64,000 nt of DNA, from positions 1 through 64,000 of the forward strand of contig PKCN01000076.1 of the NCBI GenBank assembly GCA_002862205.1, written 5' to 3'. Positions 4,825-44,257 of this stretch are shown piece by piece. Each line of letters opens with the position of its first letter. Position 1 is the stretch's first letter. The DNA is from Planctomycetaceae bacterium. GTDB taxonomy: Bacteria; Planctomycetota; Planctomycetia; Pirellulales; Pirellulaceae. Position numbers and translations under genes: made by a program. Below the pieces are notes generated by a model. That model had not been told where the DNA came from. It made no database searches and saw only the letters and a program-made list of their open reading frames with translations.

Positions 4825-6579
4825 ATGTCATTGCCCCACTCGCTTGCTTGCGTCCACGCAGTCTGCAATCCACGGTTGGAATTGCGAACCAAACCAGGAT
4901 CGTGGGCCCTGTTAAGTGCATTCCTGCTTGCAAACTTGATCACATCGGACAGTCGAGCCGAAGAAGCCCCCTTGTACGATCTCGTCATCTATGGGGGAAC
5001 CTCGGCGGGGATTGTGGCTGCTGTCCAAGCAAGCCGAATGGGAGCATCGGTTGTTGTGCTTGAGCCTTCCAATCGGATCGGCGGCTTGACCACCAGCGGG
5101 CTCGGGCAAACCGACATAGGAAACAAAGCTGCCATCGGGGGAATTTCGAGAGAATTTTATCGGCGAATCCGCGATCACTACCAACACGAATCAAACTGGA
5201 AGTGGGAGTCACGAGCGTCCTACCGCAGCGGTGGACAAAGTCGCACCAACGCGAATGAGGACACCATGTGGACTTTCGAACCTTCAGCGGCTCTGAAGGT
5301 CATGCAGGATTTCGTCGACGAGCACAGAATCAAGCTAGTTCGCAATGCAAAAATCGACCGGACTCCGCTCAAGGGAAAAGGAAAGCGCGTCCAGGGCGTT
5401 GTGATGCAAGACGCGCGTATTCGCGCCATTATCACTGAGGACAAAACAGAATACCGAGCGAAACGCTTCATTGACGCGAGCTACGAGGGCGACTTATTAG
5501 CCGGTGCGGGGGTTTCCTACAGCGTAGGCCGCGAGAGTTCCCAAACGTATGGCGAATCGCTCAACGGAGTCCAAACAAGACGCGCTCTGCATCACCAGAT
5601 TCACCCCGGCGTTGACCCGTTCCGCGTGGCCGGTGATCCCAACAGCGGCTTACTTCCCGGCATCGACAAAGCTGGTCCGGGTATTGAGCAACAAGCCGAC
5701 CACCGGGTGCAAGCATTCTGTTTTCGTATGTGTTTAACCGACCAGCCAGCGAATCGCCTCAAAATTCTCAAACCAGCCAATTACGATCCGCTTGATTACG
5801 AGCTTCTGTTTCGAAACTTCGAAGCGGGTGCCAAGACACTTCCGTGGTCCTTCTCTTTGATGCCCAACCGAAAGACTGACATCAACAACAATCGAGGTGT
5901 GTCAACCGATTTTATTGGTGAGAGCTATCACTACCCTGAAGCCAGCTATGAAGATCGCGAAGCGACGGTGGCCAAGCACCTTCATTACCAGCAAGGGTTG
6001 CTGTGGACGCTCGCCCACCATCCTCGGGTTCCTCGCTCAATGAGGCAACAAGTCTCACAGTGGGGCCCCTGCCGGGACGAGTTCGCAAGCCCTGACGGAT
6101 GGCAACGGCAACTGTATATTCGAGAAGCGCGCCGCATGACAGGCGCGATTGTCATGACGCAAAATCACTGCCAAGGGAGTCTTGTCGCAAAACAGCCCGT
6201 GGGTCTTGCTGCTTATACGATGGACTCACACCATGTCCAACGCTACGTCGACGCAAAAGGCCAGGTCCAGAACGAAGGTGATGTCCAGGTAGGTGGTTTC
6301 TCACCCTATGGAATCGATTACGGCTCACTCACCCCGAAAGCGACGGAGTGCGTCAATTTGCTCGTGCCAGTCTGTCTGAGCGCATCACACATCGCATTTG
6401 GATCCATACGCATGGAACCTGTCTTCATGGTCTTGGGGCAAACTGCTGCAACCGCAGCAATCCACTCCATTCGCGACAAACAAACAGTACAAAACATTGA
6501 CTACGACAAACTGCGTGGGCAGCTGATACATGACAAACAAGTGCTTTCGTGGTCACAACCCAAACACGAATCCCCATAG
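4825..6579 (+). CDS. FAD-dependent oxidoreductase, truncated by in-frame TAG
   Basis: 584 residues to the first stop. It has an N-terminal signal peptide (hydrophobic stretch ending near SRAEEA, about 27-46). A Rossmann dinucleotide-binding motif follows, [19 protein letters not shown] then [17 protein letters not shown] (about 55-91), characteristic of the FAD_oxidored family (PF12831) common in planctomycetes. The conserved C-terminal FAD contact region ([18 protein letters not shown]) is present, so the catalytic domain is complete. Family members often end in a golvesin/Xly-like beta domain. Here that domain lies in the same frame just past the TAG at 6577-6579. The protein is probably exported and acts on a sugar or polymer-derived substrate, but this is inference. 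Confidence 0.88.
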
Positions 6580-41534: not shown

Positions 41535-42030
41535 TCATGCAGGCCAGTCGATCGCAAGAGGAAGCAACTGTGCAAGCAACGGATCGTGCAACTGTGCAAG
41601 CAACGGATCGTGCAACTGTGCAAGCAACGGATCGTGCAACGCCTTGCCGACACGTTGATAAGACTTCGCAAAGCTCTTGATTGCGGATTCGTCCCACGCC
41701 CAGTCAATGGTTCACAGATCGCAAGCCTGTTGCAAACGCTCACGGAAACGACGTTCAAATGCAGCAACATCACTCAACTGACCTCCACTCTGCAAAAGAG
41801 GCTATTGCAATGTAGGTTCTCCGTCGACGTTACCATCACGTCCCACTGCTCAGCGGTAGCTTTAGATGTAGCGGTCCGATTTTGACGGAGAGATTGGACA
41901 TGTGCACGAAACCTGATGAACTTCACAACGCTGTCGCGCATGATCACGCCAAAACGTGCCCCAACCGCCAAATGCCACCGCGGCCAAGACCGTCAACGGC
42001 AAACCCGCCCGCCGTTTGATTCTCAGCTTG
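41535..42030 (-). pseudogene. Decayed gene with frameshifts and nonsense codon
   Basis: Read on the minus strand, coherent protein-like segments continue across frames. First a basic plus hydrophobic start (LRIKRRAGLPLTVLAAVAFG), then FIRFRAHVQSLRQNRTATSK in another frame. Next comes LSDVAAFERRFRERLQQACD, a TGA at 41712-41714, and WAWDESAIKSFAKSYQRVGK in the same frame. It closes with three HDPLLAQL repeats encoded by the 24-bp tandem array, ending at TGA 41535. This pattern suggests a small membrane-anchored protein gene broken by at least two frameshifts. The original family is not recognised. Confidence 0.4.
41564..41640. repeat. 24-bp perfect tandem repeat, 3.2 copies
   Basis: Unit begins GCAACTGTGCAAGCAACGGA and ends TCGT; copies at 41564-41587, 41588-41611 and 41612-41635 plus five bases. 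Being a multiple of three, it stays open in the minus-strand frame of the decayed gene. Confidence 0.95.
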
Positions 42031-42300: not shown

Positions 42301-42654
42301 TCAACCGCCAAAGACCTCCTCATAGAGGTCCTCGTTGAAGCCGACGATCACCTTTTTCCCGACAACCAAAGTGGGGGCTCGCAAATTCCCGGTCGGACCG
42401 AGCATCATTCCAACCAAAGCCGCGTCCTCAGGACGATCCTTACGCAAATCAACTTTCGTAACCTTCTTGCCTTTGGCGACAAGCAGAGTGGACTTGCCCT
42501 CCACTAATTCCAACGCATCTGAGTCACCGTAGCGAACTTTTCTGGCGTCGATCTCCTCAGTCACCTTCACATTCCGAGGCGCAAGAAACTCTTGCGCACG
42601 AGTGCAGGACGTTCAGCCCTTGCGGTGGTAACTCCACCCAATCGTCTTCGTCAT
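42301..42654 (-). CDS. ArsC-family selenoprotein (in-frame UGA = selenocysteine)
   Basis: 117 residues from ATG 42654 when TGA 42613-42615 is read through. The N-terminus is MTKTIGWSYHRKG, then the UGA (residue 14), TSC (Cys 17), TRAQEFLAPRNVKV, and later GPTGNLRAPTLVVGKK and VGFNEDLYEEV. This matches the planctomycete ArsC-family (seleno)protein, a thioredoxin-fold arsenate-reductase relative whose active site is C/U-x-x-C. A frame opening at GTG 42570 gives only 89 residues and lacks the active site, so the longer reading is preferred. A hairpin that fits bacterial SECIS rules follows the UGA. Redox function inferred; substrate unknown. It lies 235 bases downstream of the LarA-type gene. 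Confidence 0.88.
42579..42597 (-). promoter_or_regulatory. Putative bacterial SECIS hairpin
   Basis: In the mRNA, GCGCAAGA-GUU-UCUUGCGC forms a perfect 8-bp stem with a three-base loop beginning with G. The loop begins 23 nt after the UGA, within the 16-37 nt range and with the early loop G used to recognise bacterial SECIS elements bound by SelB. Confidence 0.8.
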
Positions 42655-42889
42655 CGTTCATTCATCCCAAATCGTGATCAACCGTTGTAAGCGTTCGATT
42701 GTAGCATCGTGAATAGGGTGGGGAATGCCACACAAAAGCAGATACTCAGTGGCGATAAAACATGACGCGATCGACGCGCTTCCGAGCTCAACACCGCAAG
42801 TACTCACGAGTACCGTCCGCGTTGGTATTCAGTGGATTTTTCCGCCGCACTGATTCAGCCGTTTTCAATCGTTGATGGAAAGCGGCCGT

Positions 42890-44257
42890 TCAGACGCAGG
42901 GCTGCACTGACGGTTCCACATAGGGACCCTCCGGGATCACCGCGATCACGGAGTCGCCTTGCCGTTCCACACTTTCGCTGATCGCCCGACCAACCGAATC
43001 AATTCGCTCTACTCCTGTGAGGCTCCACTCCTGTTCGGTCAATTGAGGACAGTAGAGCTGAATGTTCCCAACCGCCATTGGCTTCAACTGCATTTGACTT
43101 TGCCACTCGTCGATATCCGCATGGGACTTTTTCAACAGGCTCTGCAGGAAGGCACTGGGTCCCAAATCAGCCAACCGACGCTGCGAATCAACGAACTCAG
43201 CAGACCCAAAACCCTCACTGCACTCCGATGCAATGATCAGATCCCCACCTGGCTCAAGGATATTCATCGCACCTACCATTCCTTTGATGGTTTGATAATA
43301 GGTTTTATCGAGGGGATAGCCAGAAGCGGTGGTTACCACGGTTTTGTACCTTCTTGGAACTGCAACCTCACAGTACTGCCGCACGTAGTCAACCGCTTGT
43401 TCGTGAGCAGCAATGATTTCGCCAAAGTTGATAAACGAAAGCTGGCGATTCTCGTCGATGACCGTATTCAATCCCATCGCCCCACCAATCAACTTGACAA
43501 TTTCAAGCTGCTCTTCATGCAACGGGTTGTTCACCAGGTTGCAACTTCTTGCAGCCGGGTCAGCCATGAATCTTGAACTGTGAAACGTCGTGATGGTTTC
43601 GGCATGCGCAACCCCGGGCGCAATCACCTTTCTCCCACCCGAGTAACCCGCCATGAAGTGGGGCTCGACCAGTCCCGTGGCGATTCTCAAATCGGCCTGC
43701 ACCAACGCCCGATCCAGTCTCACGACAGTCCCACGAGTTGAGGTCTTACCGACCAACACGTGCTCAGCATCGTTCCTTGCATCATGGTTCTTGACTTGAA
43801 TATTTTCCAACACCCAGGAATCCCCCACCAACTCCTCCAGCTCCTTGCCTTCATTGGGTCGGTGCAACCCTGTCGCAACCAGCACGGTAATGTCCTGCCT
43901 GGCCATTCCCTTGTCCAACAACACCTCAATGATCGGCCGCAGAAACAAATGGTTTGGAACGGGGCGTGTGATGTCACAAATCGCGATACACGCGGATTTA
44001 CAATCGTTCGCCCAACCGAATCTGTCGGTGGCAGAAGTCGCATCTGCCAGGGAATCATCTTGGGGCTCCTGATGGTGGTCTGCTGGGTGGACGCGTTTTG
44101 GTGCATCGCGGCCAGTATTAGCAGACAGCGCGTCCACAACGGCCGCTTGCGGGTCCGCCAGCACAGGCATGGTGGGCTTTCGCACGACATCGGCCCTAAC
44201 CCCGCTGGGAAGCGTGATCTCCAATCCTCCACGACCGTAATTGAGTGTGATGTTCAC
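42890..44257 (-). CDS. larA: LarA-type nickel-dependent racemase family protein (DUF2088)
   Basis: 455 residues from GTG 44257. LarA blocks are present: ICDITRPVPNH, LVATGLHRPN with cofactor-site His, VKNHDARND, and VEPHFMAGYSGGRKVIAPG holding the Lys/His residues that bind the pyridinium-dithiocarboxylate mononucleotide nickel pincer cofactor. An extra hydrophilic insert (about residues 40-75) splits the N-domain relative to short homologues. The family racemises lactate or other 2-hydroxyacids. larB/C/E cofactor genes are not in the window, so activity depends on genes elsewhere. Confidence 0.85.
   Translation of the reverse strand: MNITLNYGRGGLEITLPSGVRADVVRKPTMPVLADPQAAVVDALSANTGRDAPKRVHPADHHQEPQDDSLADATSATDRFGWANDCKSACIAICDITRPVPNHLFLRPIIEVLLDKGMARQDITVLVATGLHRPNEGKELEELVGDSWVLENIQVKNHDARNDAEHVLVGKTSTRGTVVRLDRALVQADLRIATGLVEPHFMAGYSGGRKVIAPGVAHAETITTFHSSRFMADPAARSCNLVNNPLHEEQLEIVKLIGGAMGLNTVIDENRQLSFINFGEIIAAHEQAVDYVRQYCEVAVPRRYKTVVTTASGYPLDKTYYQTIKGMVGAMNILEPGGDLIIASECSEGFGSAEFVDSQRRLADLGPSAFLQSLLKKSHADIDEWQSQMQLKPMAVGNIQLYCPQLTEQEWSLTGVERIDSVGRAISESVERQGDSVIAVIPEGPYVEPSVQPCV

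Follow-up and report, generated by a model that had tools for sequence, protein, structure and literature searches.

Does an in-frame TGA on the minus strand of a planctomycete contig end an open reading frame, or does it encode selenocysteine (Sec) in the active site of a small ArsC-like protein? The question concerns the DNA stretch analyzed here (the window), which comprises 64,000 nucleotides of contig PKCN01000076.1 from a Planctomycetaceae bacterium. A sequence-only reading of the window had proposed that a minus-strand frame runs without shift through the TGA into a thioredoxin/ArsC-like protein. This is borne out by a single frame from 42654 to 42301, MTKTIGWSYHRKG-TGA-TSC-TRAQEF..., which contains one internal TGA and no other stop. 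The gene and its elements are as follows.

42301..42654, minus strand: CDS, stop codon included, of the predicted ArsC-family selenoprotein (117 residues, Sec14)
42658..42660, minus strand: in-frame TGA forming the upstream ORF boundary, two codons before the ATG
42654, minus strand: start ATG
42613..42615, minus strand: in-frame TGA read, from comparison of homologues, as Sec14, the first residue of a U-x-x-C active site
42604..42606, minus strand: codon of Cys17, the presumed resolving cysteine, invariant in 40/40 aligned proteins
42579..42597, minus strand: putative SECIS hairpin with a perfect 8-bp stem and a GUU loop at 42589-42587
42373..42384, minus strand: invariant LRAP motif, Leu91-Pro94, from the 40-row alignment and the Spx alignment
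42303-42301, minus strand: terminal stop TGA
42301..42570, minus strand: GTG-started truncated ORF of 89 aa without the active site, from a mechanical ORF list

Read through the TGA, the protein matches the NCBIfam model NF041106, "ArsC family (seleno)protein", over the entire profile (positions 1-107 of 107) with 133.9 bits against a cut-off of 85, and a whole-genome profile search recovers the same match at 126.4 bits. The U/C-x-x-C motif tested for in this family is present as UTSC, and Pfam ArsC is also matched (32.5 bits, cut-off 24). The NF041106 cut-off was reached in none of 14 control genomes. Sequence comparison thereby places the protein in NF041106, as a full-length UxxC member carrying Sec where some members have Cys; beyond this, only ordinary divergence was seen. 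The label "ArsC-family" is correct at the level of the Pfam and NCBIfam models and does not imply arsenate reductase activity.

This selenoprotein family is already catalogued and in print, and the window gene is a further member. The accessible part of a 2026 review (PMC13188914), the sole paper found in a literature search by family name, lists NF041106 as "Arsenate reductase-like protein", a selenoprotein family with a UxxC motif, and an entry of the same name with UxxC stands under COG1393 in the accessible part of PMC9312934. The portion seen of the 2008 Global Ocean Sampling survey (PMC2398784) describes "Arsenate reductase 2" (cd03032, UxxC, 42 sequences), which has UxxC and the ArsC/Spx-type superfamily in common with the window protein, the two being compared by description only. 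Reference 61, given for NF041106 in the accessible part of the review, is probably this survey, because it is placed just before reference 62. In its accessible part, a further paper (PMC4807772) discusses planctomycete selenoproteins in general terms.

The identity of the site codon was compared across homologues. In the taxonomic family of the bacterium, 42/149 genomes contain an NF041106 match, 40 of them over cut-off; the two left out are a fragment (G076) and a match at 27 bits (G142). The site codon is TGA in 36 of these 40 homologues and TGC or TGT in the other 4, which agrees with the earlier proposal that the TGA takes the place of the first active-site Cys to give U-x-x-C. Of 553 confirmed candidates, the 80 best named loci comprise 76 with TGA and 4 with Cys. 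Across 120 rows of homologues, 112 carry TGA (98 distinct after 14 duplicates were merged) and 8 TGC or TGT. A phylum-wide sample yielded 65 matches over cut-off in 64/294 genomes, 55 of them with one TGA anywhere inside and 10 stop-free. One genome (G193) holds both forms, a TGA-containing and a stop-free copy, at C5:56898-57212 and C12:140623-140940.

These comparisons bear on the reading of the TGA as an ordinary stop codon or as an error in the assembly, by which the locus would be either a pseudogene or a gene starting at GTG 42570. The sequence-only reading had expected standard gene calling to choose that start and to lose the active site; the mechanical ORF list, which is not a gene caller, indeed contains the resulting 89-aa ORF, and this, together with the draft state of the genome (451 contigs), speaks for an ordinary stop or an error. 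Against it stand the presence of TGA at the same codon in 112/120 rows, with TGC or TGT in the other 8, and the pattern of codon changes 3′ of the TGA, among which synonymous ones predominate in comparisons with each of four close relatives (50/12, 35/15, 44/21, and 40/24 synonymous/non-synonymous). The truncated ORF would also lack the invariant U14 and C17, and Trp7 and Arg11, which precede the TGA, are invariant in 40/40 proteins. Codon changes 5′ of the TGA relative to the four relatives are few (8 synonymous and 5 non-synonymous) and therefore say little about selection on that segment. As judged from conservation, the pseudogene or ordinary-stop reading is already contradicted, and we give it almost no credence. 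Reading through the TGA thus restores the complete gene, of which the mechanical ORF list keeps 89 residues and loses the active site.

Decoding of the TGA as Sec would require dedicated machinery, and the sequence-only reading had predicted selA, selB, selD, and tRNA-Sec elsewhere in the genome, naming the absence of selB or tRNA-Sec as grounds for abandoning the idea. All four are present over cut-off. The tRNA-Sec gene lies at C282:273-365 (70.3 bits, cut-off 47) and is assigned the anticodon tca by ARAGORN, while selB, selA, and selD stand in a row on contig C86 with 303.4, 502.2, and 268.4 bits, respectively. No tRNA genes were found within the 64-kb window itself. In the 14 control genomes, tRNA-Sec exceeded its cut-off in 5, selB in 2, selA in 1, and selD in 2. 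On the evidence of these sequence matches, the genome decodes Sec. SelD is fused, as the C-terminal portion of a protein of 717 residues, to a preceding pyridine nucleotide-disulfide oxidoreductase domain (358.4 bits with TIGR03169). The fusion gene (L064:2109-4262, minus strand, on C86 of the same genome) directly follows selB and selA; the fusion model TIGR04369 scores below its cut-off on this protein (458.5 of 700), and the selD model scores over its own.

Across the taxonomic family, TGA forms occur in 33/86 genomes with selA over cut-off vs. 3/63 genomes without (Fisher p = 7e-7). The three TGA-form genomes without selA or selB over cut-off are G002, G063, and G102; tRNA-Sec is over cut-off in the first two and not in G102. 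Since all three are drafts (completeness 99%, 82%, and 91%, respectively), assembly gaps are the simplest reading of the missing sel genes. All four family genomes with the Cys form have selA and selB over cut-off, and three of the four have tRNA-Sec. Among same-genus genomes, G142 has selA, selB, and tRNA-Sec all under cut-off and only the 27-bit family match; G116 has all three over cut-off and no family match. Sec decoding of the TGA at 42615-42613 is, on these sequence comparisons, well supported, not proven.

The next question is whether the RNA downstream of the TGA could direct its decoding. A perfect 8-bp hairpin with a GUU loop had been described as beginning 15 nt after the UGA, with its loop 23 nt after, and as satisfying published bacterial SECIS rules. 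The coordinates confirm both distances, and the stem-loop alone has a predicted energy of -10.8 kcal/mol. The accessible part of the review (PMC13188914) gives as limits a loop of 3-9 nt, an upper stem of 4-16 bp, an energy of at most -7.5, a G in loop positions 1-2, and a spacing of 16-37 nt, and the window hairpin lies within all of them. Hairpins of equal or greater stability in the allowed geometry follow 15/2698 TGA triplets of the window, and 8/5000 synonymous rewritings of the window peptide yield such a hairpin; because of these chance rates, the hairpin by itself is suggestive, not decisive. A 91-nt fold showed no excess stability over shuffles (z = -0.32), and no Rfam matches at E <= 10 were obtained in 42400-42800.

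It is conservation among homologues that lifts the hairpin above chance. In the 36 Sec forms of the taxonomic family, codons +6 to +11 after the TGA show strong synonymous bias and flanking codons mostly little, as measured by p values that ignore relatedness among rows. Codon +6 is ACG or GCG in 34/36 of these forms. It is followed by CAA for Gln at +7 (29/36, background 0.47), GAG for Glu at +8 (35/35, background 0.38), TTT for Phe at +9 (30/33, background 0.41), CTT for Leu at +10 (35/35, background 0.11), and GCG for Ala at +11 (24/36, background 0.26).

In the larger comparison, the GUU loop is present in 92/98 distinct Sec rows, and the six central stem pairs are complete in 67/98 Sec rows vs. 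0/8 Cys rows. The other finding that the sequence-only reading had said would undermine it, homologues with an unrelated codon at the site and no conserved hairpin, was thus not what emerged: the site codon is TGA or Cys throughout, and the hairpin is conserved in most of the TGA forms and absent from all 8 Cys forms. Pair 21-35 is GC in 67 of the 98 Sec rows, CG in 12, UA in 9, UG in 4, AU in 1, and other in 5, and pair 26-30 is AU in 61, GC in 21, and other in 16. The outer pairs are often open, 19-37 being unpaired in 60/98 and 20-36 in 29/98 Sec rows. Doubly changed stem cells number 53 in the 98 Sec rows vs. 18.0 after shuffling (0/500 shuffles as high), and the covariation score is 0.257 vs. 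0.137 shuffled, with slid registers reaching at most 0.179. No excess was found in the number of pairs with a double change (4 vs. 3.4 shuffled) or in the number of pair types (12 vs. 12.7).

With its energy limit of -7.5, the published rule selects 44/98 Sec rows, 395/9800 synonymous rewritings, and 1/8 Cys rows; at an energy of at most -5, the numbers are 90/98, 1265/9800, and 2/8, respectively. The Cys-row hairpins that pass the energy rule sit elsewhere, with the loop at 32 nt. Tests of the whole fold gave less. An RNAalifold consensus of all 98 Sec rows contained no base pair, and only 7/36 Sec forms and 1/4 Cys forms folded better than synonymous rewritings at p <= 0.05 (mean z = -0.61 for the 36 Sec forms). 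We take these tests to be insensitive to so short a stem, the register of which shifts in distant forms; nevertheless, the whole-fold and RNAalifold nulls stand as evidence against the hairpin. One clade (L118, L152, L157, and L163) has TGA at the site without the standard hairpin at +15. Within it, L152, L157, and L163 have weaker hairpins only, with loops about 30-32 nt downstream, and L118 has none. A locus in a MAG labelled Melainabacteria (L129:3031-3090) carries a 19-nt hairpin identical to that of the window, the proteins being 48% identical.

In the 8 Cys rows, the constraint on the peptide following the active site (QEF and similar) and on its codons is lifted. The comparative set of 98 distinct Sec rows and 8 Cys rows offers a view of an intra-coding SECIS that would constrain codons and perhaps amino acids.

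The closest named relatives among the matches listed, from which records very near the window's genome may be absent, are from Rhodopirellula sp. MAGs (88% and 85% identity), and the nearest among the best 80 of the 553 candidates are from Rhodopirellula and Rubripirellula MAGs. The gene is also present on the complete chromosome of a cultured isolate, strain K23_9 (L089). A few of these 80 are labelled Acidobacteria, KSB1, Zixiibacteriota, FCB group, Melainabacteria, or Actinomycetota, labels to be read with the knowledge that bins can hold foreign contigs. A midpoint-rooted tree was built from 81 rows, the window and the 80 nearest named loci, a set that is Sec-rich by choice. The 4 Cys rows are nested among Sec rows, implying at least two changes, in a tree with few columns and many weak forks. 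We tentatively suggest, giving the idea somewhat less than an even chance, that NF041106 comprises selenium-dependent redox enzymes acting on a substrate other than arsenate, that Sec is ancestral and Cys was derived more than once, and that the need for a SECIS dictates part of the peptide following the active site.

What the protein might do was approached through its invariant residues and structural relatives. With U counted as C, the 40-row alignment is invariant at W7, R11, U14, C17, G62, G86, G89, L91, R92, A93, P94, G105, and F106. A profile search against the PDB returned 12 distinct sequences at E <= 0.01. The top match is Spx (1z3e and 6ghb, listed as Spx regulators; E = 4.7e-9 over profile positions 8-113 of 115), followed by the putative arsenate reductase 2m46 (E = 1e-8) and, more weakly, by 3gkx (8.8e-5) and 2kok (9.6e-5), whose names are arsenate reductase or ArsC-related, and by YffB entries. 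Arg92 and Pro94 of the LRAP motif correspond to the first Arg and the Pro of the Spx LRRP motif; we take Pro94 to be the cis-Pro of the thioredoxin fold.

With Spx as the best PDB match, aligned nearly over its full length and with its C-x-x-C on the U-x-x-C so that both redox positions are kept, the protein could be a Sec version of this transcription regulator, a redox switch on RNA polymerase. The loop containing Spx Gly52, presumably the contact to the RNA polymerase alpha subunit, has, however, nothing to match it in the profile and aligns as an insertion. The window protein also has Ala in place of the second LRRP Arg, besides Sec where Spx has its first Cys, and it scores 26.4 bits with TIGR01617 vs. 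a cut-off of 75.05. A regulator of this kind is very improbable.

An enzyme that truly reduces arsenate, with selenium at its catalytic position, would be in keeping with the Pfam ArsC match and the name of NF041106, with the invariance of Arg92 (40/40), which aligns with the conserved Spx Arg, and with the score of 2m46, which nearly equals that of Spx (1e-8 vs. 4.7e-9). Yet TIGR00014 is absent from the six model matches at E <= 1e-3, and 3gkx and 2kok are weaker. Selenium-containing arsenate reductases as first described in the literature (PF03960; TIGR00014 in the table of the review PMC13188914) share the ArsC superfamily by Pfam and have a U-x-x-S motif, with Ser as the fourth residue where the window protein has Cys. 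We consider arsenate reduction an unlikely function.

The reading we favor, and hold with high confidence from the sequence comparisons, is that the gene product is a small oxidoreductase of NF041106, ArsC/Spx-like and with a predicted thioredoxin fold, in which UGA codon 14 is decoded as Sec under the direction of a SECIS and the U-x-x-C probably forms the redox center. An arrangement in which a Sec selenolate is followed three residues later by a resolving Cys, with an Arg and a Pro close by, is typical of thioredoxin-fold oxidoreductases. By this model, SelB and tRNA-Sec would insert Sec at codon 14, directed by the hairpin immediately downstream, and the U-x-x-C pair would most likely be the redox center. 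The Sec selenolate would attack a disulfide or another oxidized substrate, Cys17 would resolve the adduct as a selenenylsulfide, and the cellular thiol system would restore the reduced state, with the invariant Arg92 and Pro94 placed beside the redox site. The overall picture of selenoprotein biology is unchanged by this member of NF041106, which would be a worthwhile biochemical target.

The gene neighborhood was examined for hints to a substrate. In 110 loci including the window (some genomes are represented twice, e.g., L051 and L086), ORFs of at least 90 aa in roughly 3 to 5 kb of flanking sequence were clustered and the 20 largest clusters considered. In the largest, present at 35 loci, the nearest examples are antisense ORFs that overlap the gene itself. 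Beyond these no widely shared neighbor was found among the 110 loci, the next cluster covering 13. A family scan of the window's own neighbors and the clustering of the 110 loci found no neighbor pointing to a substrate. Counting the window, its LarA-like, HlyD-like, and squalene-cyclase-like neighbors recur at 7, 8, and 9 of the 110 loci, respectively, and its 3-keto-disaccharide-hydrolase/GSDH-like neighbor at 11/110.

Upstream of the selenoprotein gene, at 42890-44257 on the minus strand, lies a relative of the LarA-like nickel-dependent racemases, which matches Lar_N and LarA_C and falls short of the cut-off for the LarA equivalog. A perfect tandem array of 3.2 copies of a 24-bp unit lies at 41564-41640, about 0.7 kb downstream of the selenoprotein gene, and one relative (L053) carries a perfect 18-bp array at 4866-4918.
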